NCBI RefSeq assembly: GCF_010811875.1
Contig: NZ_VKHP01000003.1
Location: forward strand, 1 to 64,000
Direction: 5' to 3'
DNA: 64,000 nucleotides
From: Bradyrhizobium uaiense
GTDB lineage: Bacteria; Pseudomonadota; Alphaproteobacteria; Rhizobiales; Xanthobacteraceae
Within the stretch, counting starts at the first letter, position 1, and the number at the start of each line of letters is the position of its first letter. Positions 11,801 to 27,974 of the stretch are shown here, one piece after another. Position numbers and translations under genes: made by a program. The notes under the pieces were generated by a model. It had not been told where the DNA came from and ran no database searches. It was given only the letters and a program-made list of their open reading frames with translations.

Positions 11801-12073
11801 TCAGGCGACCACCAGCGTCTCGGCCTCGAACTTCGCGATCGCCTTGTTGGCAAGGCGGAGTCGGTTCAGCTCACCGCGCTGGAACAGCTTCACGATGATG
11901 CCGAGCAGGCGCTCATTGGTGGCGAAAGTGTCGGGAATAGCGCCGGATTTGCGCAGATAATTCGAGGCGATCGCGTAGGCGTCACCGACGACCTCGACAT
12001 TCAGCACCTCGATCCCGCGCTCGACCAGCATGTCCTGCTTCTCCGTTGGGAAACGAGATAAAGCTCGGGGCAT
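11801..12073 (-). CDS. Small cytoplasmic protein, unknown function
   Basis: A 90-residue protein with mixed helix-forming sequence and no membrane segment or signal peptide. The start at 12073 has GAGG about 9 bases upstream; the open frame extends 28 codons further without a good ribosome binding site. It is the first gene of a probable two-gene unit with the 73-residue protein. No domain was recognised. Confidence 0.6.
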   Translation of the reverse strand: MPRALSRFPTEKQDMLVERGIEVLNVEVVGDAYAIASNYLRKSGAIPDTFATNERLLGIIVKLFQRGELNRLRLANKAIAKFEAETLVVA

Positions 12074-12233
12074 GCCTTGGTTCCTCGCCGGGACCCATTT
12101 ATTTTCGCAGGTGCAGCATGAACCAAATGCGGCACGAAAAACGCATCGGCCGGGCATGACCGATGCGTTACTGGAGGAAGGCTGCCGGTCTTCTCAAGCG
12201 GCCGGCTTGGCCATCAGGCGAAGAGAGGAAGGC

Positions 12234-12752
12234 TCAGAGGCGATACAGGATCTGGTCGGTCCAGAAGCGCTCGAGGCGATGCAGCGACTTGTTGAGGCTC
12301 GCGAACTCCTCGTTCGAGATGCCGCCGACCTGCTCTACCGTCTTGACGTGCTTCTGATAAAGCGCGTCGACGATCTTGCGGACTTCCTGGCCCTGCGGGG
12401 TCAGACGAATGCGGACCGAGCGGCGATCGACGCGCGAGCGCTGATGATCGAGGAAGCCGAGCTCGACGAGCTTCTTCAGATTGTAGGAGACGTTGGAGCC
12501 GAGATAGTAGCCGCGGGTACGCAGCTCGCCGGCGGTCAGTTCCTTGTCGCCGATATTGTACAGGAGCAGCGCCTGCACCGAGTTGATGTCGGCGCGGCCG
12601 CGACGATCGAATTCGTCCTTGATGACGTCGAGGAGCCGGCGATGCAGCCGCTCCACCAAAGTCAGGGCTTCGAGATAGAGCGGCTGCACCGGAGCTTGGC
12701 CGGCAGCGCGATCAGCGGCATCCGCCGCCGTTGTCGCAACGGCTTTCATCAT
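12234..12752 (-). CDS. ldtR: MarR-family transcriptional regulator, LdtR-like
   Basis: A 172-residue winged-helix regulator. The DNA-binding region holds ELTAGELRTRGYYLGSNVSY and LKKLVELGFLDHQRSRVDRR, with dimerisation helices at both ends. The GYYLGSNVSYNLKKLVE core matches the rhizobial/Liberibacter LdtR group, which controls an L,D-transpeptidase and stress genes; this is from memory of the family. GGGGAAG lies 5 bases before the ATG. It sits near hemB and the DUF6163 gene, its usual neighbourhood in Rhizobiales. Confidence 0.85.
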   Translation of the reverse strand: MMKAVATTAADAADRAAGQAPVQPLYLEALTLVERLHRRLLDVIKDEFDRRGRADINSVQALLLYNIGDKELTAGELRTRGYYLGSNVSYNLKKLVELGFLDHQRSRVDRRSVRIRLTPQGQEVRKIVDALYQKHVKTVEQVGGISNEEFASLNKSLHRLERFWTDQILYRL

Positions 12753-13420
12753 GACACTTCCCCTGTTTGTCGTTTTTATCGACTTTATTCGACGAAACTT
12801 GTGTCCCGCCTGATAGGTCCAACGTAAGGGGGCCGTTTGAATATCCGCTTAAATAAGAGAATAAAGAGATCATGAATTTAAGACAGTGAATCGTGGATTA
12901 AGCCCATGGATCAAGGGCTTTTCGCAACTTTTCATTGACGGTGGCAGGCCCCTGTTCACGCTTCGTCTGCCTCCCCTGTCACATTCGGAAACAGCCTCGT
13001 CTGAATTCGAAACGGCGGCGTAACGTGTGTGAGGGAACCCTTTACGGTGACCGATCGGTTACCGGAAAATTCTTTGAAAATTTTATGAGAGTGCGTCGGC
13101 GGGATCTGCACGCGATGCGCGCAGGCGGACTTCATTCATTGCCGCGGCCAGACCGGTTCCGCCGTCAGCCCGCGCAAAGCCGGCCGGCACACGCGCCGAG
13201 ATCCGGTGAAATGGGTCCCGACGGCAGGTCCCGCAGAGACGCCTTGGGAATGGGGCGCCTCGAATGGGGTGCGATCTGTCGGTACTCACCTAGCAGAACC
13301 AGCGGCGCTGTCTTCTCGTTGGGCGCACGGCTGCAATATAATGGCCGCCGCCGTCGGCTATTCGTCGCGCTGTCGCTGGCAGGCAACAGTGCATCAGGCC
13401 GTCCCTACACGCGACGCTGG
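12753..13420. other. Intergenic region upstream of ldtR
   Basis: About 670 bases with no convincing gene. The segment from about 12780 to 12920 is markedly richer in A and T than its surroundings and probably holds the ldtR promoter. The rest is high-GC sequence with random open frames only. Confidence 0.55.
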
Positions 13421-13882
13421 CTATGGCGGGCGTTCGCGCGCCGACATCCAGGCGAGCGCGAGATAGGCCGCGAGCATCAGGGCTTCGAACCCGACCACGG
13501 TGAGGCTGCCGCCATAGATGCCCGGAAACATCAGCTCGATGACCGCCATCGACACCACGGTGGTCAGCCAGACCACGGCGCCCCAGGGCGTCGCCAGCCA
13601 GAGCCCGACGGCGGCGACGAGCTCGATGACGGCGAAATAGATCGTGGCGGTCTGCCAGGCCATCGACTGGTTCTCGAAGGCCTCCTCCTCGCCCCCGACG
13701 AAGCCCGTCACCTGGGCCCAGTGATAGAGGCCCTTGGCGACCGAGACGACGGCCATGATACGCAGGAAGATGACGAGGCGCCGCGTCCACGCATTGTCGT
13801 CCGGCTGGATCCGGTCGGACGAGATCGCGCTCACCGAGATGGCGTTGTCGCGCGCCTGATCGCGTGCAGAGGTGTCAGACAT
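13421..13882 (-). CDS. DUF6163-type inner-membrane protein
   Basis: 153 residues: an approximately 35-residue cytoplasmic N-terminus and then four predicted membrane helices (for example FLRIMAVVSVAKGLYHWAQV and ATIYFAVIELVAAVGLWLAT). The family is found beside hemB and ldtR in Rhizobiales and has no established function. It is divergent from hemB, with about 195 bases between the two starts. Confidence 0.85.
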   Translation of the reverse strand: MSDTSARDQARDNAISVSAISSDRIQPDDNAWTRRLVIFLRIMAVVSVAKGLYHWAQVTGFVGGEEEAFENQSMAWQTATIYFAVIELVAAVGLWLATPWGAVVWLTTVVSMAVIELMFPGIYGGSLTVVGFEALMLAAYLALAWMSARERPP

Positions 13883-14027
13883 CCGAATCGCCGCACAACG
13901 GCTGCAAAATGGGGTTCATGGCGCAGTCTTGGCCCGCCGGGGATGCAAAATCAATCGCCGTTGCGGCAAATCAAGGGCGCCCAGGACGCAGTGGCCGTGC
14001 AATGACGGCGCCCCTGCGAGGTGCTAG

Positions 14028-15786
<1,759 letters not shown>

Positions 15787-15943
15787 GGGTTCCTCTCGGC
15801 TTGCCTGACGCAACATACACGTTCCGCGACCGCCGATGGCCGCCGAATCGCCGGAATATTTCGGCTAGTTCATGTTCGCGCGGCCTTGGCAGGCGAACCT
15901 CCTGTTCCCATGTCCTGCGCGGGACTTTCATCGGAGGTTGGTC

Positions 15944-16501
15944 ATGTCCTACGGCAATGACGGCGGCACCTGGCGCAGTGAAGCCTGGCGCAACGACGGC
16001 GGCGTTCCCCCGCATGCGTTCGATCCGTCGATGCAGCCGGAACTGTTCCGCGGCGTGCTCACGCGGCGTGTGTTTGCGTTCCTGATCGACCTCTTCGTGC
16101 TGTCGGTGCCGGTCATCCTGGCCGTGATTTTCATTGCCGTGTTCGGCCTCGTCACGCTCGGCCTCGGCTGGGCGCTGTTCTGGCTGGTATCGCCGGCCTC
16201 GATCGTCTGGGCGATCGTCTATTACGGCGCCTCGATCGGCGGCCAGCACTCGGCCACGCCAGGCATGCGCATGATGGATCTGGAACTGCGCACCTGGTAC
16301 GGCGCACGCGGCTATTTCGTGCTCGGCGCCGTCCACGCGGTGCTGTTCTGGGTGACGATCTCGTTCCTGTCGCCGCTGGTGCTGCTGGTCGCGCTCCTCA
16401 ACGGCCGCCGCCGGCTGCTGCACGACGTCATCCTCGGAACCGTGATTATCAACAGCTCGGTCCGGACCCAGGTCACCCCGGCGGCGCGGGCCACTTATTA
16501 G
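15944..16501 (+). CDS. RDD-family inner-membrane protein
   Basis: A 185-residue protein with an approximately 45-residue Gly/Asn-rich N-terminus. The RDD signature RRVFAFLIDLFVLSVPV is followed by three to four membrane helices and a conserved C-terminal GRRRLLHDVILGTVVI-like segment. RDD proteins are often linked to ion or osmolyte exchange, though the role here is not known. GGAGG at 15933-15937 sets the start. It stands alone, before bpt on the same strand. Confidence 0.88.
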   Translation: MSYGNDGGTWRSEAWRNDGGVPPHAFDPSMQPELFRGVLTRRVFAFLIDLFVLSVPVILAVIFIAVFGLVTLGLGWALFWLVSPASIVWAIVYYGASIGGQHSATPGMRMMDLELRTWYGARGYFVLGAVHAVLFWVTISFLSPLVLLVALLNGRRRLLHDVILGTVIINSSVRTQVTPAARATY

Positions 16502-16587
16502 GCCCGCCTAAACCAATTGACCGTTAGCCTCCGGGGGGCGATGCTAACTCGGCTGCCTGTATTGTTTGTGGAGCCCGACGATCAGAC

Positions 16588-17364
16588 GTGACCCAGCACT
16601 CGCGTGATACTCCTCAGTTCTATCTGACGGCGCCCTCTCCCTGCCCCTATCTGCCGGGCCGGCACGAGCGCAAGGTTTTCACGCACCTGGTCGGCGATAA
16701 AGCGGGCGATCTCAACGACTTGCTGACCCATGGCGGCTTCCGCCGCAGCCAGTCGATCGCCTACCGGCCGGCCTGCGACCAGTGCCGGGCCTGCGTCTCG
16801 GTCCGGGTGGTCGCCAACGAATTCCGCCCCTCCCGCAACTTCCGCAAGGTACTGGCCCGCAACGCCGACATCATCGGTGAGCAGCGCACGGCGGTGCCGA
16901 CATCTGAGCAATATTCGGTCTTCCGCGCCTATCTCGACCGCCGTCACCGCAACGGCGGCATGGCCGACATGACCGTGCTGGACTACGCGATGATGGTCGA
17001 GGACAGCCATGTCGAGACCCGGATCATCGAATACCGCAAGCGCAATGCCGACAGCGCCATCACCGGCCGCGGCGACGAGCTGATGGCGGTGGCGCTGACC
17101 GACGTGCTCAGCGACGGGCTGTCGATGGTCTATTCGTTCTTCGAGCCGGGGCTTGAGGCCCGCTCGCTCGGCACCTTCATGATCCTCGACCACATCGCCC
17201 GCGCCCGCCGGCAGGGGCTGCCCTACGTCTATCTCGGCTACTGGATCGAGGGCTCCAAGAAGATGGACTACAAGGGCCGCTTCCTGCCGCAGCAGCGGCT
17301 CGCGCCGTCGGGCTGGCTGCGCGTCGATGCGACGGGCGAGGTGCTGGCCGAGCCGCAGGACTAG
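16588..17364 (+). CDS. bpt: Aspartate/glutamate leucyltransferase (Bpt)
   Basis: Transfers leucine from leucyl-tRNA to N-terminal Asp/Glu of proteins, marking them for ClpS/ClpAP degradation (N-end rule). The protein has 258 residues. The N-terminal [16 protein letters not shown] and the cysteine-rich [14 protein letters not shown] motif are typical, as is the later [16 protein letters not shown]. The start is a GTG with only a distant GGAG upstream, so expression may be low. It converges on mntH; an imperfect inverted repeat at 17363-17382 may terminate both. Confidence 0.95.
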
Positions 17365-17382
17365 CGCTTTCGATAAGGCGCT

Positions 17383-18768
17383 CTAGGTGCCGAAGATCGT
17401 GTCGATCAACAGCTTCACGTTCAAGATCACGATCAGACCGGCGACGATCCACGCCGCCACCGCAACCGGGACCGAAATCGCGAACGCACCCATCTTGCGC
17501 TTGTCGGACACGAAGCGCACCAGCGGAATCACCGCGAACGGCAGCTGCATCGACAGCACGACCTGGCTGAACACCAAGAGCTGCGCGGTGCCGCTTTCGC
17601 CATAGAGCGCGGCGACCACGATGACCGGGGCGATCGCGATGCCGCGGGTCACCAGTCGCTGCAGCCAGTCGGGCAGCTTGAGGTCGAGAAAGCCCTGCAT
17701 CACGATCTGGCCCGCCAGCGTCGCGGTCACCGTCGAATTGAGGCCTGATGCCAATAAGGCGACGGCAAACAGCGTCGAGGCGATGCCGAGCCCGAGCAGC
17801 GGCGACAGCAGCTCGAACGCCTGGTCGATCTCGGCGACGTCGGAATGGCCGCTCTTGTGGAAGGTCGCCGCCGCCAGCACCAGGATCGCGGCGTTGACGA
17901 ACAGCGCCAGCATCAGCGCGATGGTGGAGTCGGTGGTCGCCCATTTGATCGCGTCGCGCCGGCCCTCCTCGGTGCGCGGATAGGCGCGGGTCTGCACGAT
18001 CGACGAGTGCAGATAAAGATTGTGCGGCATCACGGTGGCGCCGATGATGCCGATCGCGATGTAGAGCATCTCCGGATTGGTGAAGATCTCGCGCGAAGGC
18101 ATGAAGCCGCCGAGCACGCCGGCGATCGGCGGCGCCGCGGCCGCGATCTGGACGGCGAAGCAGACCGCGATCACGATCAACATCGCGATCACGAAGGCTT
18201 CGAGGAAGCGGAAGCCACGGTTCATCAGGAGCAGCAACAGGAACGCGTCGAGCGCGGCGAGCAGTGCACCGCCGATCAGGGGAATGCCGAACAACAGCTT
18301 CAGCGCGATCGCGGTGCCGATCACCTCGGCGAGGTCGCAGGCGATGATTGCGGCCTCGCAGGCGAGCCAGAGCAGCAGGTTCACCGGCCGCGAATAGGTG
18401 GCGCGGCACGCCTGCGCCAGATCGCGATCGGTGGCGATGCCGAGCCGCGCGGCGAGCGCCTGCAACAGGATCGCCATCAGGTTGGAGAGCAGGATGACCG
18501 ACAGCAGCGTGTAGCCGAACTTCGATCCGCCCGCGAGATCGGTGGCCCAGTTGCCGGGGTCCATGTAGCCGACAGAGACCAGATAGCCCGGCCCGGCGAA
18601 GGCCAGCAGCCGCCGCCACCACAAGCCGCCGGTCGGCACCGCAACGGTGGCGTTCACCTCCGGCAGGCTGCGCGCATGCCCGGCATCGTCCCGCCAGCCG
18701 CCCGGCACGGCGCTGGAAGCGGAAACGGAAACGGAAACGGAAGAGATTTCAGGGGTCCTCGCATCCAT
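17383..18768 (-). CDS. mntH: MntH, Nramp-family divalent metal (Mn2+) transporter
   Basis: Proton-coupled uptake of Mn2+ (and Fe2+) across the inner membrane. 461 residues with 11 predicted helices. The metal-binding DPGN (residues 70-73) and the MPHN motif in helix 6 are intact. A 50-residue Ser/Val-rich N-terminal tail precedes helix 1. The start region faces a divergent operon. Paired TTGCAACT elements about 30-50 bases upstream suggest Mur/Fur-type manganese control. Confidence 0.95.
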
Positions 18769-18797
18769 GAAATCAGGATGGCCGATCTCGCCCGTTA

Positions 18798-18820
18798 TTG
18801 CAACTCATTTGCAACTGCAT
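18798..18820. promoter_or_regulatory. Candidate Mur/Fur-type operator upstream of mntH
   Basis: TTGCAACT occurs at 18798-18805 and again at 18809-18816, exactly 11 bases (one helical turn) apart, and TGCAT follows. Rhizobial manganese-responsive sites are built from TGCAA/TTGCA words. The position, 30-50 bases before the mntH start and between divergent genes, fits an operator. Binding is inferred. Confidence 0.5.
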
Positions 18821-18857
18821 CTGGGCTCACGAAAATGATACCGACCGCGCGCCTTGC

Positions 18858-18878
18858 AAAGCACTGAAGAAGTGCTTT
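18858..18878 (+). other. Short hairpin 12 bases before the fused pspA start
   Basis: AAAGCACT (18858-18865) pairs perfectly with AGTGCTTT (18871-18878), loop GAAGA. It sits immediately before the ATG at 18890, where a ribosome binding site would be expected, and none is visible. It could control translation. Because the next codons look TnpB-like, it could also be a relic of an IS200/IS605 subterminal hairpin. Confidence 0.4.
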
Positions 18879-18889
18879 ACGTTAGATAC

Positions 18890-20020
18890 ATGATCAAGCT
18901 GCCCGTCGAGACGCCAACCGCAACGCTGCGTTACGCCCTCGCCCCCGACCCGTCGGGCATCGAGGCGATCGAGGCGACCTTTGCGGCCTATGACCGGATG
19001 ATCGCGATCCTCGCCGAGGTGGCTCCCGTCGGCGCCAACCTCGTCTCGCTGCACGCCCAGGCCTATGAACGGATCCGCAAGGAGACCGGCCTGCCCGCGC
19101 GACTGGTCACGCTCGGCCTGCGCGACCGCGCCAACTACGTCGCAGCCTCCGCCATCCGCCGGATACCGCTCGACGACAAGTTGTTCGCGATCAAGGGCCC
19201 AACTTCACTGACCATTAGCACTGTCAGCGGACGCGTCTTGGTGCCGTTCGACGTGCCGGGATATGTCTCGGGCTGGGAAAGCCCCTTCCCGGCGCATTTG
19301 ATCTCGGATGGTCGCGGCTACGAAATCCACATCGCCGTCAAATCCAAATCAGTCCAACCGGAGGAGAAGACCATGCTTCACGAAGGCATCCTTGCGCGCA
19401 TGGGCCGGCTTCTTGCCGCCATCGCGAGCCAGACCATCGACAACGTCGAGAGCAACAACAAGGTGGCGCTGGTCAAACAGGCAATCCGCGAGATCGACGC
19501 CGGCGCCGACGAAGCGCGCTATGCGCTCGGCAAGTCGCGTGCCGAAGAATTCCGTCTGAAGAAGCGGCGCGAGGAACTGGATACCGAAACGACTGGTCTG
19601 AACGAGAAGATTCGTCTCGCACTTGCGGAAAATCGCGAGGATCTCGCGCGTGCCGGCGTCGCGCGACAAATTGACCTGGAGTCGCAGGTGATCGCGCTGG
19701 AACGCGCGATGGATTTCATCGAGCTCGAAATCGATGAGCAGACCAAGGCGCTGCAGGCCATGCTCGGCGCGCGGCGCGAGGCTGAGACACGATTAACCGA
19801 TCTCGAACAAAGCCTGATCCGCGAGGCCAAGGACGAAACCAGCCGGGGCCCATCGACGACCAATACATTGAGTGCTGAACGCGCCATGGCGGCGATCGCC
19901 CGGGTCACCGGCGTTCCCGCTGCAAGCGTGCTCGGCGACAAGGAGCTTGACGAACTCGATCGCCTGCACCGCGAAAAGGAAATCGCGGCGCGGCTTGAAA
20001 GGATCAAGTCAGAAAAATGA
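18890..20020 (+). CDS. pspA: PspA/IM30-type protein with an in-frame TnpB-like N-terminal extension
   Basis: The 376-residue open frame has two parts. Residues 162-376 are a PspA-like coiled-coil protein (MLHEGILARMGRLLAA, then long Glu/Lys/Arg helices) of about 215 residues, close to the normal PspA length; PspA-type proteins stabilise stressed inner membranes. Residues 1-161 resemble the N-terminal half of IS200/IS605 TnpB: GLPARLVTLGLRDRANY (67-83), LTISTVSGRVLVPF (107-120) and DGRGYEIHIAV (140-150), ending just where the RuvC domain would begin. A strong GGAGGAG at 19360-19366 precedes the internal ATG at 19373, so a normal-length PspA may be made alone, the fusion may be made, or both. 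The stop overlaps the yqiJ-like gene as ATGA. Confidence 0.8.
   Translation: MIKLPVETPTATLRYALAPDPSGIEAIEATFAAYDRMIAILAEVAPVGANLVSLHAQAYERIRKETGLPARLVTLGLRDRANYVAASAIRRIPLDDKLFAIKGPTSLTISTVSGRVLVPFDVPGYVSGWESPFPAHLISDGRGYEIHIAVKSKSVQPEEKTMLHEGILARMGRLLAAIASQTIDNVESNNKVALVKQAIREIDAGADEARYALGKSRAEEFRLKKRREELDTETTGLNEKIRLALAENREDLARAGVARQIDLESQVIALERAMDFIELEIDEQTKALQAMLGARREAETRLTDLEQSLIREAKDETSRGPSTTNTLSAERAMAAIARVTGVPAASVLGDKELDELDRLHREKEIAARLERIKSEK
19360..19375 (+). promoter_or_regulatory. Strong internal ribosome binding site and start for PspA
   Basis: GGAGGAG (19360-19366) lies 6 bases before ATG 19373, which begins MLHEGILARMG, the expected PspA N-terminus. The outer ATG at 18890 has no comparable site. 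This suggests that most PspA starts here, whatever happens upstream. Confidence 0.75.
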
Positions 20021-20676
20021 GTGTAGTTGGCGACATTCTGCTCGCCCCCGACGTGCGGCCCTTCGCGGTCGCGGCTGCGATCATGGTGGCACTTGGCGGT
20101 ATCGAACTGCTCACCACCATGGTCGGACTTTCGATCAGCGAACTCATCGGCAAGGATTTCGCGGTCGAGGCCGAGAGCCATAATGCTCTCAGTGGCCTGT
20201 TTCTCTGGATCAACGCCGGGCGGCTTCCCCTCCTGATCCTGATCATTCTGATACTCGGCATATTCTCGATCGGAGGCTTCCTGCTTCAGGGAATGGCGCA
20301 TGCCGTAGGCACCGCCATCCCGGTCTCGATTGCCGCGGTGGTAGCTGCTGCCGGCAGCGTCCCCGTGATCAGAAACACCAGCCGCGGCCTCGCCCGCATC
20401 ATTCCGCGCGACGAGAGCTACGCGGTCAACGACAGCGACTTTGTCGGCAAGGTCGCAACCGTGTCGGTCGGCCCGCTCGATCAGGGCCTGCCCGGCAGGG
20501 TCCGTCTCAAGGATGTCTTCGGCAACTGGCACACCGTATCGGCGCGTGCCAGCGCAGAGTCCGAGGCATTGCCGGTCGGCGCCAGCGTGCTGCTGGTCGA
20601 TCGCGATGCCAAAGGCTTCATCGCGATTGCCGCTCCCTCCGATCTCGTCGAACAACAATCTTCCAACAGGGCATAA
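20017..20676 (+). CDS. YqiJ-like OB-fold membrane protein
   Basis: 219 residues: an N-terminal membrane half with about four helices (for example LLILIILILGIFSIGGFLLQ), then a soluble C-terminal OB-fold-like domain (DFVGKVATVSVGPLDQGLPG, WHTVSARA). It belongs to the NfeD/YqiJ-type partners of flotillins. It is coupled to pspA by an ATGA overlap and lies 3 bases before the flotillin gene, matching the E. coli yqiJ-yqiK arrangement. The three proteins probably act together on inner-membrane integrity. Confidence 0.88.
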   Translation: MSVVGDILLAPDVRPFAVAAAIMVALGGIELLTTMVGLSISELIGKDFAVEAESHNALSGLFLWINAGRLPLLILIILILGIFSIGGFLLQGMAHAVGTAIPVSIAAVVAAAGSVPVIRNTSRGLARIIPRDESYAVNDSDFVGKVATVSVGPLDQGLPGRVRLKDVFGNWHTVSARASAESEALPVGASVLLVDRDAKGFIAIAAPSDLVEQQSSNRA

Positions 20677-20679
20677 CAC

Positions 20680-22425
20680 ATGTGGGAACTTGCTATACCC
20701 GTCGCTATCGGCGTCATTGCCATTCTCGTCATCGGTTTGCTGTTTGCAAAACTCTACAAGCGCTCGACGCGCGATGAGGCCTATGTCCGCACCGGCCTCG
20801 GCGGCCAGAAGGTGGTGCTCGACGGCGGCTCGCTGGTGCTGCCGATCTTCCACTCCACCGCCGCGGTGAACCTGAAGACGCTGCGGCTCGAGGTCGCGCG
20901 CGGTGGGCCGGACTCGCTGATCACCAAGGACCGCATGCGCGTCGACATCGGCGCCGAATTCTATCTCCGCGTCAAACCCGACTCGTCGTCGATTGCGCTC
21001 GCCGCGCAGACGCTCGGCAACCGCACCAACGACGCGGCCGAGCTGCGCGAGCTGGTCGAAGCCAAATTCGTCGACGGCCTGCGCTCGGTCGCCGCGACCA
21101 TGAACCTGGAAGAATTGCAGGAGCAGCGCGCGACCTTCGTCAAGGCGGTGCAGGACGCGGTCGGCGCGGACATCCAGAACAACGGTCTCGAGCTTGAATC
21201 GGTGTCGCTGACGAAGCTCGACCAGAGCGACATCAAGCATTTCAATCCGAGCAATTTCTTCGACGCGCATGGCCTCACCACGCTGACCAAGATCACCAAG
21301 GAACGCGAACAGGAGCGCAACCAGATCGTCCGCACCACCGAGGTCAATATCGCGCAGCAGGACCTGGCGGCGCGGCAGACCACGCTGACTATCGAAAGCA
21401 CCAAGCGCGAGGCCGAGCTCGCCCAGCAGCGCGACATCGCCAACAAGACCGCGGCGATGCGCGCGCAGACGGCGCAGGTCGAGCAGACCGCGCTGCAGAA
21501 CGAAGCCGAATACCGCATCCAGCAGGAGCTCGCGGTCGCCAACAAGCAGACCGAGGCCAACCAGGCCCGCGACACCCGCAAGATCGAGGCTGATCTCGCG
21601 GTCAAGCGCCGCAACACCGAGATGGAGCGCGACCTTCAGATCGTCGCACAGGAAAGCGCGATCGCGGTCGCAGCCAAGAGCAAGGAGCAGTCGGAGGCCC
21701 AGACCATTGCCGAGACCGCGCGTGCCGTCGCGATCTCCGCCGAGGAAAAGGTCACCACCGCCCGCGCCACGGAAATCGCCGAGCGTGACAAGATCATCAA
21801 CGTGATCGCGGCGCGCAAGGCGGCCGAGACCGACGCGATGCCGATCACGGTGATGGCCGAGGCCGAACGCCAGGCCGCCGCCAACAAGGCGGAAGCCACC
21901 AACGTGCTCGCCAAGGCCGATGCGGCGGCCGCCACCACCCGTGCCGCCGGCGTCAAGGCGCTCGGCCAGGCAGAAGCCGAAGTCGCGACGATGAAGGCAG
22001 AGGCGCGCAACAAACTCAGCCCTGACATGATCGACTACGATCTCAATCTGGCGCGGATCAATGTGATCCCGAGCGCGCTCGCCGAGGCGGTGAAGCCGAT
22101 CGAGAAGATCTCCGATATCCGGATCTTCGACACCGGCAGCATGCTGGGCCGTGGTGGCGGCAACGGCCATGCCAACGGCAATGGCGGTCTCGGGCTCGGC
22201 GACGGCCTCGCCGCGCAATTGCTGTCGGTCTCGGCATTCAAGCCGATGATCGACAAGATCCTATCGGAGGCCGGATTCCCCGCAGGCCCCGACGCCATGA
22301 CCAACCTGCTGAGTGCGCTGCGTGCCACTCAAGCGGAAGTACCGGCCCCGTCCATCGACAGCACGGCAACGCCGCCGGCCACCATATCGGGAACCGGCCA
22401 CGCGACGCTTGGTCCGAGATCGTAG
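20680..22425 (+). CDS. YqiK-type flotillin
   Basis: 581 residues. One N-terminal membrane helix (about 4-24) is followed by an SPFH/band-7 domain (about 30-200) and a very long Ala/Glu/Lys/Gln coiled coil with AEA/TAR repeats (about 210-440). The C-terminus is Gly/Asn-rich (RGGGNGHANGNGGLGLG). Flotillins organise membrane microdomains. It is the last gene of the pspA-yqiJ-yqiK operon, with a clear terminator about 80 bases on. The symbol is left empty because several flotillin subfamilies exist. Confidence 0.9.
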   Translation: MWELAIPVAIGVIAILVIGLLFAKLYKRSTRDEAYVRTGLGGQKVVLDGGSLVLPIFHSTAAVNLKTLRLEVARGGPDSLITKDRMRVDIGAEFYLRVKPDSSSIALAAQTLGNRTNDAAELRELVEAKFVDGLRSVAATMNLEELQEQRATFVKAVQDAVGADIQNNGLELESVSLTKLDQSDIKHFNPSNFFDAHGLTTLTKITKEREQERNQIVRTTEVNIAQQDLAARQTTLTIESTKREAELAQQRDIANKTAAMRAQTAQVEQTALQNEAEYRIQQELAVANKQTEANQARDTRKIEADLAVKRRNTEMERDLQIVAQESAIAVAAKSKEQSEAQTIAETARAVAISAEEKVTTARATEIAERDKIINVIAARKAAETDAMPITVMAEAERQAAANKAEATNVLAKADAAAATTRAAGVKALGQAEAEVATMKAEARNKLSPDMIDYDLNLARINVIPSALAEAVKPIEKISDIRIFDTGSMLGRGGGNGHANGNGGLGLGDGLAAQLLSVSAFKPMIDKILSEAGFPAGPDAMTNLLSALRATQAEVPAPSIDSTATPPATISGTGHATLGPRS

Positions 22426-22502
22426 CACACGCACGCACGATCTCAGCCAGCTTGTGATCCCAAACCTCGATGGCCTAGTCAGGCACTGAACATCGCATCG
22501 AC

Positions 22503-22528
22503 AAGGCCCGCCGTCCGGCGGGCCTTTT
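22503..22528 (+). terminator. Rho-independent terminator of the flotillin operon
   Basis: A perfect 10-bp stem (22503-22512 with 22517-22526) with a 4-base loop and a TTTT run. It ends the three-gene operon before the next same-strand MFS gene. Confidence 0.9.
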
Positions 22529-22609
22529 CTTGGCGTTATCGGGAAACGGGTGGGATCGGACGTCGTCCAACCACACACTATGGCCAGATCACATTTAAGG
22601 GATTTTGCC

Positions 22610-23851
22610 ATGTCCGCCGATACGCCTAGCCTGCCGGCCACTTTCAATCGCCTGGCCTGGTCCAACCTCGCCGCGCAATCGGCCGAACAGATCGCGCTTG
22701 CGGCCGCACCCATCGTCGCGGTGCTGGTGCTCGGCGTCGGCGAAGGCCAGACCGGCCTGTTGCAGACCGCGCTGACGCTGCCGTTCATCCTGTTTGCGAT
22801 TCCCGCCGGCCTGCTGGCCGACCGCGTGTCGCGGCGCTGGGTGATGGCAGGCTCCGAGGCCCTGCGCGCCGCGGCATTGGCCGCGATCCTGCTGTTGCTA
22901 TGGCTCGGCGCGATGACCCTGCCGCTGCTGGCCTTGCTCGGCTTCATCGCGGTCTGCGGCACGGTTGCCTACAGCGTCGCCGCCCCTGCGCTGGTCCCGT
23001 CGCTGGTGACGTCACAGCAATTGCCGGCGGCCAACGCCCGCATCGAGCTCGCCCGCACCGTCGCGTTCGCCAGCGGTCCCGCGCTCGGCGGCGTGCTGGT
23101 CGGCTGGGTCGGTGCGGCGCCGGCATTCGGCTTTGCTGCGGCGCTATCGGCGATCGCGGTCGTGCTGCTCGCCGGCCTCTACGAGCCGGCGCGCCAGCCC
23201 GCCCCGCGGCGTCATCCGATGCAGGACATCAAGGAAGGCGCAGCCTTCGTGATGCACCACGCCTTGCTGCGGCCGGTGTTCATCACCCAGTTCATCTTCA
23301 ACACCGCGTCGTTCCTGCTGCTCGCCGTGTTCGTGCCCTATGCGGTGCGCCATCTCGGGCTCACCGCCACCGGCGTCGGCACCACGCTTGCGATGTACGG
23401 CGTCGGCATGGTGGTCGGCGCGCTGTTCGCCACCCGGGTGATGAAACGGCTGGCGTTCGGCACCGTGATCGGGCTCGGCCCGGTCACCGGCCTCGTCGCC
23501 TCGCTGGTGATGGCGCTGACCACCTGGATCGCGACGCCGCTGCTCGCCGGCCTCGGCTTCTTCCTGCTCGGCGTCGGCCCGATCCTGTGGGTGATCTCGA
23601 CCACCACGCTCAGGCAATCGGTGACGCCGCCCTCCCTGCTCGGCCGCGTCTCGGCGATCAACATCATGAGCTACGGCGCCCGCCCGCTCGGCTCCGCACT
23701 CGGCGCCGTCGTCGGCGGCCTCTACGGCGCCGAAGCCTGCCTCTACCTTGCGGCCGCGATCTTCGCCGCCCAGGCGCTGGTGATCCTGATGTCGCCCGCA
23801 GTGTCGCTGACGCGGCAGCCCGATATGGTCGGTGAAGCGGCGCGGTGTTGA
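22610..23851 (+). CDS. MFS exporter, EntS-like (MFS_3 type)
   Basis: A 413-residue, 12-helix major facilitator protein. The first loop reads IPAGLLADRVSRRWVM, the MFS motif A. The overall pattern (QTALTLPFILFAIPAGLLAD; LLGRVSAINIMSYGARPLGS near the C-terminus) resembles enterobactin exporter EntS and macrolide-type drug exporters. AAGGGA lies 7 bases before the ATG at 22610; the frame is open 20 codons further up. The substrate is unknown. Confidence 0.88.
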   Translation: MSADTPSLPATFNRLAWSNLAAQSAEQIALAAAPIVAVLVLGVGEGQTGLLQTALTLPFILFAIPAGLLADRVSRRWVMAGSEALRAAALAAILLLLWLGAMTLPLLALLGFIAVCGTVAYSVAAPALVPSLVTSQQLPAANARIELARTVAFASGPALGGVLVGWVGAAPAFGFAAALSAIAVVLLAGLYEPARQPAPRRHPMQDIKEGAAFVMHHALLRPVFITQFIFNTASFLLLAVFVPYAVRHLGLTATGVGTTLAMYGVGMVVGALFATRVMKRLAFGTVIGLGPVTGLVASLVMALTTWIATPLLAGLGFFLLGVGPILWVISTTTLRQSVTPPSLLGRVSAINIMSYGARPLGSALGAVVGGLYGAEACLYLAAAIFAAQALVILMSPAVSLTRQPDMVGEAARC

Positions 23852-23868
23852 TCAGCCTCCACGCCAGC

Positions 23869-23937
23869 GTCATTGCGAGGAGCTCGCGACAAAATTGCAG
23901 TGCAATTTTGCACTGAAGCGACGAAGCAATCCATTCC
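23869..23937. repeat. Palindromic intergenic repeat (GTCATTGCGAGGAGC ... GACGAAGCAATCC type)
   Basis: The element starts GTCATTGCGAGGAGC and ends GACGAAGCAATCCATTCC, a pattern I associate with abundant intergenic repeats in Bradyrhizobium and relatives. Its centre holds a perfect 9-bp inverted repeat (AAAATTGCA, G, TGCAATTTT) at 23891-23909. Confidence 0.7.
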
Positions 23938-24090
23938 TCCGCAAGCGGACCTGGGGCCGGTGTGAGCTAGCTCGCCCCGCGCGAGAGCCTGTCCGGGTAA
24001 AGACTGCACCACGCGAAGATTACACCGCAAATAAGCGATGCAATCATAACTGCTCCCCCGCCGTATCCCGAGGTTTTGAAGGGTCGATCA

Positions 24091-24843
24091 TCAAGCTGCT
24101 GCGAGGAGTGAGGCGCACGCATCAATCTGCACCAGCAGCGCGGCTCGTGCAGAGAACAAGCCATCGGGATTGCCACCGGATTTACGGCATTGAAGCGCGC
24201 GCGTGATCAGGTCCGCGTCTAGTCGCGGCACGGGCTTCTTGTTCACGAACGCCACAGCGTCATCGTTTGAACCCATGAGGCCAGTCGTCCAACTGTAGCA
24301 GAAGCGTGCAGGATAGAGCAGAGTTCGAAGATAGGCCTTGCGGTGCATGGGATCGAGCACGGAGGCGGCGGCAAAGCTTCGAGCGCGGCTTGACCAGCTC
24401 GCAAACGGGTCGGCGCACAGATATTGCCGTATCTCAGTGAGTGGAGGCCGCGCGGGTCTGGTGCGTTCGCGCTCCATCAGGACGATCGCGTGATCGAGAT
24501 AGTCAATGCGATCGAGCGGCGGAAAGCGGCCGATGGAAAAGTCGCGATCGGTCCAGAACAGGGACAATTTGGGACCCCATTCGGCCGATAGCATCACGGC
24601 CTCGCGGTGGATGCGCTCATGCGCTTGCGGCGACAATCCGGTCGCTGTGACGAGCGCCATGTCGAGATCGCTGTAGCACCAGCTAAATCCCGCATGCGCC
24701 ATGCTGCCAATAAGATATGCACCTATCAAGTCGGTCCCGAATGTCTTGCTCCACTGGGAAACAAGACGGCGCGCAAATTCCTCTGCCGCGGCTCTCGCAA
24801 GCTCATTGGGGTCAGCTTGCACCATCGAAGGCGAGTCGAACAC
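24091..24843 (-). CDS. Nucleotidyltransferase-fold protein (aminoglycoside adenylyltransferase-like)
   Basis: A 250-residue protein with the nucleotidyltransferase core motif: G46-S47 and D59-x-D61 in LIGSMAHAGFSWCYSDLDMA. A helical C-terminal domain follows (about 130-250), as in ANT-type aminoglycoside adenylyltransferases. The second metal carboxylate is probably in the WTDRDF segment. The substrate is unknown; a resistance role is only a possibility. It precedes an MHS-family MFS gene on the same strand, with 78 bases between. Confidence 0.75.
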   Translation of the reverse strand: MFDSPSMVQADPNELARAAAEEFARRLVSQWSKTFGTDLIGAYLIGSMAHAGFSWCYSDLDMALVTATGLSPQAHERIHREAVMLSAEWGPKLSLFWTDRDFSIGRFPPLDRIDYLDHAIVLMERERTRPARPPLTEIRQYLCADPFASWSSRARSFAAASVLDPMHRKAYLRTLLYPARFCYSWTTGLMGSNDDAVAFVNKKPVPRLDADLITRALQCRKSGGNPDGLFSARAALLVQIDACASLLAAA

Positions 24844-24921
24844 GTGCCCTCCTGAGGGTCCATCGGTTGGCTTCGGTGCAGGAGGGCCGCGTGGCGGCGC
24901 TCCGCTGTTTTGGGGTGACTT

Positions 24922-26238
24922 CTAATTGGTCAATTCCCCGCTGGCTGTCTCGGGCGCGAGCCGCGCAGACAGGAGGGTTATGGCGCCGATCACCATCAGA
25001 TAAGTCGAAATGGGCCAGGTTGCACCGCCGGTCCAGGCCATAAGAGACGCCGCTGCAAACGGAGTGAGGCCCGCTATCGCAGCGCCGATCTGGAAGCCAA
25101 GCGATGCACCGCTGTACCGCACCGGCGCCGTAAACAGCTCCGAGTACCAGGAAGGTCCGACCGCAAACCCGACCATCTGGCCGAATGTGATGGCCGCGAC
25201 GATCGTCAACGTGATGGTCGACGGATCCCTGGTATCAAGCAGCCAGAACATCGGAAACGCAAAGGCCATCGCGAACACGCAGGTCGCATAAAACATACTC
25301 TTGCGACCGATCCGGTCCGAAAGCCAACCGAATACCGGGATCATCGCGAGCGCCACCACGGCCGCGATGAAGATCGCGTTAATGATAACGTTCCGCGGCA
25401 TGGCGAGCGCGCCGGTGACATAGCTGATGGCAAAGACGCCTGCCACGATCGCGTAGGTTACTTCGGAAAGCTTTAGTCCGATCGCCGTGAAAAGCGGGCG
25501 GCGATGCCGCGCCAGGATGTCCACAAGCGGGACCTTGGCCAGCTCTTTCCTGGCCTCGGTCTCACGGAAGACCGGCGTCTCCGCGAGCTTCAGGCGGATA
25601 TACAGGCCGACGGCAACGAGAACGATGCTGATCAGGAACGGAATGCGCCACGCCCAGGCGAGGAAATCTGACTCGGGCAGATGCCCCAGCACCGCGAACA
25701 CCCCGATTGCAGCAAGATTCCCGATGGGCCAGCCAATCTGGACCACCGACCCCAGAAGCCCACGGTTCCTGGTCGGCGAATTCTCGACGACCATAAGCAC
25801 GGCCCCGCCCCACTCGCCGCCAAGACCGATCCCCTGGAGCAGACGCAGCAACACCAGCAGAAGCGGCGCGGCGATGCCAATCTGGTCATAAGTGGGGAGG
25901 AGGCCAATCAGGAAAGTCCCCAACCCCATGATGACGATGGTCATCGCCAACATTGCCTTGCGACCAACCCGATCGCCAAAATGTCCAAAAATCGCCGCGC
26001 CCAAGGGGCGCGCCAGGAAACCGACGGCATAGGTGCCGAACGCTGCTATGGTGCTCAGCGTAGGGTCGGACAGCGGGAAGAACAGTTTGTTGAAGACGAG
26101 TGCGGTGGCCATGCCGTAGATCAGAAAATCGTACCACTCGACCGCCGTGCCGATCATGCTCGACACCACGATGCGGTTCATCTCGGTCGTGTCGCTCGCC
26201 GGACGGTTGGCAATTGAAAGCTTTTCCGCGATGCTCAT
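24922..26238 (-). CDS. MFS transporter of the metabolite:H+ symporter (MHS) family
   Basis: 438 residues, 12 helices. The N-terminal SSMIGTAVEWYDFLIYG is the MHS signature shared with ShiA, ProP and KgtP. The MFS loop FGHFGDRVGRKAML and the later GWLSDRIGRKSMF are both present. GGAGGG lies 6 bases before the ATG at 26238, which is preferred over a GTG/ATG further upstream. It is divergent from the winged-helix/TPR regulator, which may control it. It probably imports an organic acid or osmolyte. Confidence 0.9.
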   Translation of the reverse strand: MSIAEKLSIANRPASDTTEMNRIVVSSMIGTAVEWYDFLIYGMATALVFNKLFFPLSDPTLSTIAAFGTYAVGFLARPLGAAIFGHFGDRVGRKAMLAMTIVIMGLGTFLIGLLPTYDQIGIAAPLLLVLLRLLQGIGLGGEWGGAVLMVVENSPTRNRGLLGSVVQIGWPIGNLAAIGVFAVLGHLPESDFLAWAWRIPFLISIVLVAVGLYIRLKLAETPVFRETEARKELAKVPLVDILARHRRPLFTAIGLKLSEVTYAIVAGVFAISYVTGALAMPRNVIINAIFIAAVVALAMIPVFGWLSDRIGRKSMFYATCVFAMAFAFPMFWLLDTRDPSTITLTIVAAITFGQMVGFAVGPSWYSELFTAPVRYSGASLGFQIGAAIAGLTPFAAASLMAWTGGATWPISTYLMVIGAITLLSARLAPETASGELTN

Positions 26239-26393
26239 GATTAGCCCTCCAACACCGCCTGCACCCTGCCCTGTGGCGGCCATCCCAACGATGCCAACGC
26301 GCTCCACCCAGCGCTTTGAGACCGTCTTGAGGGGACTTTGATTTGCATTGAGATTGGCTTGATTTTGCTATCATAATTGCTGTCACAGTAAGG

Positions 26394-27974
26394 ATGGAGC
26401 CTGCAATCAACGGGGCCCTTAAGCTGCTGTTCTTGTTCGACAATGTTTCTCTCGACATAGACCGGCGAGAGTTGCGCCGGGACGGCGAACTACGTTCCAT
26501 CGAGCCCCAAGTCTTCGATTTATTGGAGTTTCTGGTTCGCAATCGCGACCGCATGGTGACCCGGGACGATGTTCTGGCGGCCGTTTGGAATGGGCGGATT
26601 GTTTCAGAATCGACGCTGGCAAGCCGCATAAGTGCCGCCCGCGTCGCCATCGGCGACAATGGGGACGATCAGCGGCTAATCCGTACCGTTTTGCGTAAGG
26701 GCATCCGCTTTGTAGGGATGGTCCGCGAAGAGGGAGGGTATGCAGCAGCGCCGACGAAAACTCCCGCAGAACGGCCCGCGCTGCCTTTGCCCGATAAGCC
26801 GTCGATCGCCGTTCTTCCATTCTCCAATATGAGCGGCGATCCAGAGCAGGATTATTTCGCCGACGGGATTTGCGAAGACATCATCACCGGCTTGTCCAAG
26901 CTACGCTGGTTTTTTGTCATCGCGAGGAATTCCTCGTTTATCTACAAGGGCAAAGCAGTCGATCTGCGCCACGTCGGTCTCGAACTCGGTGTGCGCTATG
27001 TCCTGGAGGGGAGCGTCCGCAAGAGCGGCGGCCGCGTGCGTATCACTGCCCAGCTGATCGATGCCGAGACCGGCAAGCACATTTGGGCCGACCGCTACGA
27101 TCGCGACCTCATCGACATTTTTGCACTGCAGGACGAGATCACCAAAAAGGTCGTGGCAGTGATCGAGCCGAAGCTGCTGGAGGCCGAGGGTATCCGCTCG
27201 CAATATCGCTCGCCCGAGGACCTTGGTGCGTGGAACATGCTCATCCGGGCCAACTCCCAGTTCTGGCGACTGACCAAGGACGAGAGTCAGGCCGCCATCA
27301 CGCTCCTCAAGCAACTGGTCGAACGATATCCTCTCTATGCGCCGGCGCACAGCATGTTGGCCTTCTTCCTTTTGGTGTCACGGCAGGGTGGGTGGCACAT
27401 GATGGAGCCTCAGGTCGCCCAAGCCGCATATCTCGCCGCACGGGCGGTGGAACTCGACGACAGTGATCCTTGGGCGCACCTCGCGTTGGGATTTGTCGCC
27501 TTCACCAAGCGCAGCACCGATGAGGCGGTCGAGGAATTTCAGCGTGCCCTCGATCTCCACCCAAACTTCGCCGCCGCGCACGGCTTTCTCGGCTGCACAC
27601 TCGCGTTTGATGCCCGATCCGACCAAGCTATCGACCACCTCGAGCAGGCCATCCGTATGAGTCCGCACGATCCGCAGAACGCGCTGCTCAACGCAGCCCT
27701 TGCGGCGGCGCATTACCAGGCCAGCCGATACGACGAGGCCGTCGGCATCGCCCACAAAGCCATCCAGCAGCGATTCGAGTTGACCAATGGTCATCGCATT
27801 TACGTCGCGAGTCTCGCTCAGGCAGGGCGCATGGACGAGGCGCGCGCAGCCTTGGCTCGACTACAAGAATTGCATCCGGACAACTCGATTGCGTGGATCG
27901 AGCGAAACGTACCGTACACGGCTGGGCCGATGGCAAAATTCCTGGAAGGCTTACGCAAGGCCGGACTGCAGTGA
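26394..27974 (+). CDS. Winged-helix / TolB-like / TPR regulator
   Basis: A 526-residue multidomain protein. An OmpR/CadC-type winged helix (about 13-110) has a LRSIEPQVFDLLEFLVRNRD pattern. A TolB-like N-terminal domain (about 135-270) shows KPSIAVLPFSNMSGDPEQDYFADG and YVLEGSVRKSGGRVRITAQL. TPR repeats (about 290-510) include AAYLAARAVELDDSDPWAHL. There is no receiver domain or membrane helix, so it is a soluble, one-component-like regulator. This architecture is expanded in Bradyrhizobium; signals are unknown. It is divergent from the MHS transporter. The ATG has only AAGG directly adjacent, so the start is uncertain. Confidence 0.88.
   Translation: MEPAINGALKLLFLFDNVSLDIDRRELRRDGELRSIEPQVFDLLEFLVRNRDRMVTRDDVLAAVWNGRIVSESTLASRISAARVAIGDNGDDQRLIRTVLRKGIRFVGMVREEGGYAAAPTKTPAERPALPLPDKPSIAVLPFSNMSGDPEQDYFADGICEDIITGLSKLRWFFVIARNSSFIYKGKAVDLRHVGLELGVRYVLEGSVRKSGGRVRITAQLIDAETGKHIWADRYDRDLIDIFALQDEITKKVVAVIEPKLLEAEGIRSQYRSPEDLGAWNMLIRANSQFWRLTKDESQAAITLLKQLVERYPLYAPAHSMLAFFLLVSRQGGWHMMEPQVAQAAYLAARAVELDDSDPWAHLALGFVAFTKRSTDEAVEEFQRALDLHPNFAAAHGFLGCTLAFDARSDQAIDHLEQAIRMSPHDPQNALLNAALAAAHYQASRYDEAVGIAHKAIQQRFELTNGHRIYVASLAQAGRMDEARAALARLQELHPDNSIAWIERNVPYTAGPMAKFLEGLRKAGLQ

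Follow-up and report, generated by a model that had tools for sequence, protein, structure and literature searches.

The stretch of DNA considered here, referred to below as the window, comprises 64,000 nucleotides of the Bradyrhizobium uaiense genome (contig NZ_VKHP01000003.1, positions 1 to 64,000, forward strand) and contains an operon of pspA, yqiJ and flotillin genes. The PspA protein of this operon is preceded, in the same reading frame, by a domain of 161 residues, and structure prediction together with profile comparison confirmed this domain as the complete recognition lobe (the WED and REC domains) of the TnpB/Cas12 type. The fusion is old, conserved and under purifying selection. 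We propose, at about even chances, that the lobe acts as a DNA-binding autorepressor of its own operon and is coupled to PspA as a membrane sensor. The single open frame extends from the ATG at 18890 to the stop codon at 20018–20020 (376 amino acids), and a further ATG, at 19373, begins the PspA part. An earlier sequence-only reading of this DNA had described the frame as open without a stop into PspA, and this is correct. The two parts of the protein are the following:

18890–19372, plus strand: TnpB-type recognition lobe, residues 1–161 (AlphaFold model, Foldseek, VIA, profile match, hhalign), with the first WED strand at residues 11–17, the REC helices at residues 21–82 and the remaining WED strands at residues 90–150, assigned after the accessible sections of PMC10097598
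19373–20020, plus strand: PspA domain of 215 residues, which by itself is the predicted short product (Pfam PspA_IM30 at residues 166–299, E 1.1e-10, 41.9 bits against a cut-off of 33.9)

The AlphaFold model of the lobe, built on 26 homologues, has a mean predicted local distance difference test score (pLDDT) of 84.8 and a predicted template modelling score (pTM) of 0.79. In a Foldseek search of the PDB with this model, the first 11 rows were TnpB, Fanzor2, TranC or Cas12; the best row had an E-value of 4.9e-3 and a probability of 1.00, and no match was found at E 0.001 or better. After re-alignment with VIA, the same kinds of proteins occupied 49 of the 50 rows listed (Z 11.2–6.1, 128–149 residues aligned), a listing that excludes no other family, and the one remaining row, outside TnpB/Cas12, had a Z of 2.9. 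Four entries of ISDra2 TnpB were aligned with Z 10.7–11.0 and a root-mean-square deviation of 3.8–5.3, and the alignments extend to residue 173–185 of this protein. According to the sections of PMC10097598 available to us, WED and REC of ISDra2 TnpB occupy residues 1–176 and RuvC begins at residue 185. The likeness therefore stops at the RuvC border, where it had already been placed by the sequence-only reading.

A profile of 19 diverse lobes was used to search 398 genomes of the phylum. Its best match outside the fusions was a complete TnpB (L138) from another class of the phylum (genome G806), with E 5.1e-10 over positions 14–155; this protein has OrfB_IS605 and Cas12f1-like TNB domains. The hhalign comparison of the lobe profile with L138 gave 96.2% and E 2.2e-9 over columns 14–152, and the comparison with a 12-member TnpB profile was weaker (48.5%, E 1.8e-4). 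The claim of a TnpB-like N-terminus, made originally from the letters of the sequence, is thus borne out by the fold and by both comparisons with L138. At E 1 or better, 34 of the 398 genomes matched, nine of them with fusions and one with the L138 TnpB; the other weak matches that were inspected (L139, L140, L141, L148) are not TnpB-like. The OrfB_IS605 profile detects TnpBs in 18 of 200 genomes, and the lobe profile reaches one TnpB. The lobe seems to have arisen within one particular, diverged branch of the TnpB family. The recognition lobe of L138 is unusually close to the fused one and provides a lead to the source subfamily.

Residues 1–161 have no match in Pfam at E 1, and in NCBIfam there are three weak unrelated matches alone, the best with E 0.0083. 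When the 26 lobes were compared with Pfam and NCBIfam, the matches were at chance level, including one to HTH_OrfB_IS605 (E 0.16) and one to tspaseT_teng_N (E 0.05). No TnpB was found by the lobe profile among PDB sequences, and the B. uaiense genome itself contains no OrfB_IS605 match. Since Pfam and NCBIfam detect the PspA part alone, annotation resting on them would miss the lobe. The RuvC nuclease domain is absent: PspA starts from residue 162, and Pfam gives PspA and no OrfB_IS605. A search for the zinc ribbon gave no Cas12f1-like_TNB match in the 376-residue protein at E 1; L138, as a positive case, has one. The lobe is similar to TnpB of IS200/IS605 (ISDra2) and to Cas12f in its WED and REC fold, which covers its entire length, and to TnpB in its profile homology to one complete member. 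Unlike them, it lacks RuvC and the zinc ribbon, is nearly neutral in charge and is fused to PspA; unlike TnpB, it has no adjoining transposon genes, judging by the open reading frames (ORFs) of the window and by Pfam scans of the operon.

With the full protein as a query, 17 of 41 genomes matched, all of them among the 25 genomes of the same genus. The lobe profile revealed the lobe in 25 of 397 genomes of the order, belonging to seven genera and seven families, and in 24 of these 25 carriers the lobe and PspA lie in one open frame of 369–519 codons. Four further, diverged carriers from three additional families were found in 385 genomes of the class, and fusion carriers are thus known from ten families. 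In the diverse fusions inspected, the junction between the lobe and PspA is at one fixed point. The ratio of nonsynonymous to synonymous substitution rates (dN/dS) is 0.08–0.16 for the lobe in 14 comparisons and 0.04–0.18 for PspA, and the pairwise identities of the two parts correlate (r 0.90, 27 sequences). Each of the 124 fusion loci compared has a YqiJ gene next, and 117 of them also show flotillin, the remaining seven loci being short. Loci L002–L018, L019–L098 and L100–L106 partly overlap, as they come from the same genomes; hence, 110 or 100 distinct sequences are counted in some of the comparisons below. In the window, the two neighbours are as follows:

20017–20676, plus strand: YqiJ-like membrane protein, the start of which overlaps the pspA stop codon (Pfam YqiJ_N E 2.9e-18, YqiJ_OB E 5.4e-11)
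20680–22425, plus strand: flotillin (Pfam Flot E 1.2e-25, Band_7 E 1.1e-17)

Three options had been offered by the sequence-only reading: a domesticated N-terminal domain of TnpB attached to PspA, a fossil insertion, and an upstream frame in which a stop simply happens to be absent. The fold, the profile match and the conservation support the first. The second supposes that a transposon gene once inserted and that chance preserved an in-frame remnant of it. The lobe does derive from a transposon gene and one copy is decaying: in G399, a genome of the same genus (L123/L124), remnants of the lobe lie in shifted frames, most of PspA is deleted and YqiJ is kept. However, the fossil explanation is rejected because of purifying selection and the spread over ten families, to which the fixed junction can be added, and we give it next to no credence. 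A frame that is stop-free by chance is rejected as a full explanation, since the lobe shows conservation at the protein level and, in the carriers inspected, fusion to PspA; the other part of the third option, the use of an internal start, fared better and is considered below together with the regulatory signals. Upstream of the fusion, two of these signals can be noted:

18858–18878, no strand: palindrome AAAGCAC-N7-GTGCTTT, the proposed operator, 11 nucleotides before the ATG at 18890; the sole site in the window at two mismatches or fewer, with 0.10 expected
18854–18883, plus strand: promoter-like hexamers TTGCAA (18854–18859) and TACGTT (18878–18883), separated by 18 nucleotides, with agreement at 7 of 12 consensus positions

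Each of the 17 carriers among the 41 genomes has a single copy of the exact palindrome, always immediately upstream of the fusion, and none of the eight non-carriers of the genus has it; the site is thus private to the fusion's own promoter. It was also found once in one of the 16 genomes of other families (G031), and the reversed control pattern was found in none of the 41 genomes. The G031 match (L159), in another family of the order, lies away from any fusion (AAAGCACTTTTAAAGTGCTTT). Over the 124 fusion loci, there are 34 distinct palindrome sites; at least six of the seven arm positions pair in 118 of the 124 loci, a count by a best-site script that leans upward, and in 33 of the 34 distinct sites the palindrome ends 10–12 nucleotides before the start codon. 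Some of the changes are symmetric in the two arms: AAAGTAC/GTACTTT in L044, AAAGGAC/GTCCTTT in L110 and AAAACAC/GTGTTTT in L121. L122, which is outside the palindrome scoring, has a related site by eye. In the decayed G399 copy, the palindrome has been lost with most of the lobe and PspA, and L123 contains no match at three mismatches or fewer. The sequence-only reading noted no second hairpin; one inverted repeat, at 18858–18878, is present in the promoter. In clade 2 of Bradyrhizobium (L010–L018 and many of L052–L098), a second, directly repeated half-site, GTGCTTTAGTGCTTT, is located between the palindrome and the ATG.

The promoter-like hexamers overlap the palindrome. Among 100 distinct contexts, 51 score at least 8 of 12, compared with 6.2% of shuffles. 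The second hexamer ends 5–7 nucleotides before the ATG in the examples inspected (6 nucleotides in the window). This spacing fits a leaderless mRNA and suggests that the long protein is translated from such a message.

Two other owners of the palindrome were considered. An mntH (Nramp)-like gene, named by eye, is located at 17383–18768 on the minus strand; in clade 1 its transcription runs away from the operon, and the palindrome there consequently lies within a shared divergent promoter region. However, mntH is the divergent neighbour in clade 1 only. A role of the palindrome as the mntH operator was rejected: clade 2 and other families carry the palindrome too, with no mntH found in those loci, and the eight non-carriers of the genus lack it. 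A linked regulator of at least 120 codons common to both Bradyrhizobium clades was rejected as well. The flanks of 40 clade 2 loci longer than 9 kb were compared with positions 12000–27000 of the window (ORFs of at least 120 codons, E 1e-10, at least three loci), and only the three operon genes and their antisense frames are shared. Given the restriction of mntH to clade 1 and flanks that share only the operon, the site is not accounted for by mntH or by a linked gene of at least 120 codons common to the clades.

A third signal is located inside the gene, at the junction of the two parts:

19360–19375, plus strand: internal Shine–Dalgarno sequence GGAGGAG with an in-frame ATG (19373–19375), kept though the underlying peptide varies

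An in-frame ATG begins the PspA part in all 121 loci scanned, and in 118 of them it is preceded by a Shine–Dalgarno-like stretch, as counted by a script that includes weak forms. In L107–L109, where the script had taken a wrong upstream Met, the true PspA junctions are preceded by GGAG, and three fusion loci outside the scan have AAGGAG before the PspA ATG. The peptide under the site varies by lineage (PEEKTM, EEENAM, MEENM, QKEITM, EEQTTM, GEERSM); the DNA remains purine-rich. In 110 distinct genes, the Glu codons at this site are GAG in 256 cases and GAA in two, and elsewhere GAG in 2158 and GAA in 1288, a count over related, not independent, sequences that includes L107–L109 with the wrongly placed Met. 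Purine-rich DNA and a GAG bias under a changing peptide have the appearance of selection acting on a ribosome site. Two products are thus expected from the gene, the long fusion and PspA alone, and the internal start is very probably used in addition to the first. That the internal start alone is used, the lobe frame giving no stable product, would agree with the strength of this site and with the fact that none was seen before the ATG at 18890; it is highly improbable in view of the low dN/dS of the lobe, its retention as a protein over ten families and the single open frame in 24 of the 25 carriers of the order.

The proposed autorepressor can be described as follows. Translation of the long protein would begin at, or close to, the 5' end of a leaderless mRNA; the protein would pair through its PspA part and would bind the palindrome between the promoter hexamers, thereby repressing the pspA–yqiJ–flotillin operon. 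Membrane damage would draw the PspA part to the membrane and to its partners, YqiJ and flotillin; the lobe would then leave the DNA, and the operon would open. The short product would serve as lobe-free PspA for membrane repair, and PspA and its regulator would form one chain. In this fuller form, where a lobe without nuclease or guide RNA is a protein-only, sequence-specific operator reader and the whole is a one-chain membrane-stress switch with a second start giving lobe-free PspA, we consider the proposal possible, at a little under even chances.

The part of TnpB that has been retained is compatible with such a role. In the portions of PMC10097598 at hand, the TTGAT motif of ISDra2 TnpB is read by Y52, S56, K76, F77 and Q80 of REC and by T123 and N124 of WED; holding the RNA scaffold falls to WED and RuvC. 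The fusion retains the motif-reading half, WED and REC; the nuclease and much of what holds the RNA are gone. The RNA- or DNA-binding domain suggested by the sequence-only reading can accordingly be narrowed: the RuvC half that holds RNA is gone, the half that reads the target motif is kept, and its binding is putative.

The position of the lobe in the operon was compared with that of other genes. YqiJ was found in 14 of 240 genomes of the class: in three with the fusion, in seven with a lobe-less pspA that follows a separate small gene, and in four without pspA just upstream. As the seven lobe-less pspA genes are preceded by a small gene, the lobe occupies the place of another first gene. In these sister pspA–yqiJ–flotillin operons (L177, L178, L179, L180, L181, L183, L184), the small gene has about 170–190 codons, and its start looks ribbon-helix-helix-like, by eye only. 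Some of the sister promoters carry TGCATACA-like repeats, also by eye. If the ribbon-helix-helix reading is right, the TnpB lobe is in the slot of a DNA-binding regulator.

A number of results weigh against an autorepressor. The net charge of 19 lobes is from -6 to +4, compared with +11 to +24 for 12 TnpBs; the near-neutral charge tells against binding of a guide RNA and provides the chief objection to DNA binding as well. In the same alignment, from which L206 was left out, K76, F77 and Q80 of ISDra2 correspond in the 19 lobes to A/S, R/Q (13 R, 6 Q) and T/V (16 T, 3 V), residues that are conserved yet different from those of TnpB; the other contact positions were not placed safely. The hexamers of the window and of clade 2 are weak (7 of 12 consensus positions), a strict promoter scan of the window found no promoter, and in L130 no palindrome is convincing. 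Neither the model (pLDDT 65.5) of the small gene in the sister operons nor its best Pfam match (DUF6290, E 0.0017, below the cut-off) confirmed it as DNA-binding, and NCBIfam and PDB sequences gave no support for a ribbon-helix-helix either. Finally, an unlinked regulator, or a linked gene of fewer than 120 codons outside the flank comparison, could bind the palindrome.

A lobe without the positive charge and the known motif-contacting residues of TnpB, and two products that differ in their N-terminus, would also be expected if the lobe were a structural adaptor without nucleic-acid binding. Such an adaptor would cap the start of PspA or bind a partner, the ratio of the long to the short product would tune PspA assembly, and an unlinked regulator would act on the palindrome. 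However, the palindrome accompanies the fusion (17 of 17 carriers against none of eight non-carriers), and no other gene is common to the flanks of both Bradyrhizobium clades at the threshold used; we regard the adaptor as rather unlikely.

The lobe might also still be RNA-binding or RNA-guided, with a small RNA as its ligand or with the inverted repeat as a hairpin in its own mRNA leader. The ancestor binds RNA partly through WED (PMC10097598, accessible sections), and the repeat keeps its pairing through two-arm changes, as a hairpin would. On the other hand, RuvC, the holder of much of the RNA scaffold, is absent and the charge is near zero; no Rfam match was found in 17000–23500, a search in which kinds of RNA outside Rfam would be missed; the overlap of pspA and yqiJ leaves little room there; and the promoter-like hexamers put the mRNA start after the repeat. 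Altogether, an RNA-dependent lobe appears improbable, and the autorepressor remains the explanation that we prefer.

E. coli PspA holds its own operon off, and the long protein would, as proposed, do the same. The E. coli system has a PspA/IM30 domain and a membrane-stress operon in common with the fusion, and a separate regulator, PspF (PMC11237479, in its available part); in contrast, the proposed regulator forms part of the same chain as PspA, and a TnpB lobe takes the place of an AAA+ activator. The association of PspA with YqiJ and flotillin has already been described in the same survey of phage-shock-protein (PSP) systems, as far as its text was accessible, and the operon considered here brings the same three membrane genes together; it differs from the published class, in which a CesT/Tir gene accompanies pspA. 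The available main text of PMC11237479 mentions neither TnpB nor a transposase nor Bradyrhizobium. Titles and abstract openings, including few subscription papers, revealed no published fusion of a TnpB lobe with PspA.

All of the exaptations of TnpB that we know of, Cas12, the TnpB-like nuclease-dead repressors (TldRs) and Fanzor, are RNA-guided. If the proposal is true, a target-motif reader without RuvC, and seemingly without RNA, can persist as an ordinary domain that binds DNA or serves as an adaptor, and PspA membrane stress is linked to transcription within one protein. With its palindrome, two starts and lobe, the system lends itself to direct tests in a plant-symbiotic soil bacterium. 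A close parallel among these proteins is TldR, likewise a domesticated relative of TnpB and a transcription repressor, as is proposed here. According to the accessible part of PMC13418256, TldRs act on genes other than their own and still have a guide RNA and a RuvC domain, which is inactivated; the fusion, in contrast, has lost RuvC entirely, its own promoter is the target proposed for it, and no guide RNA was found (Rfam, same region).

Named genomes yielded 117 relatives; of the 80 retained, 77 are titled Bradyrhizobium. L076 (JAUEPE010000003.1), titled Frankia sp. RB7, has a Bradyrhizobium-type operon and probably comes from a mislabelled genome.
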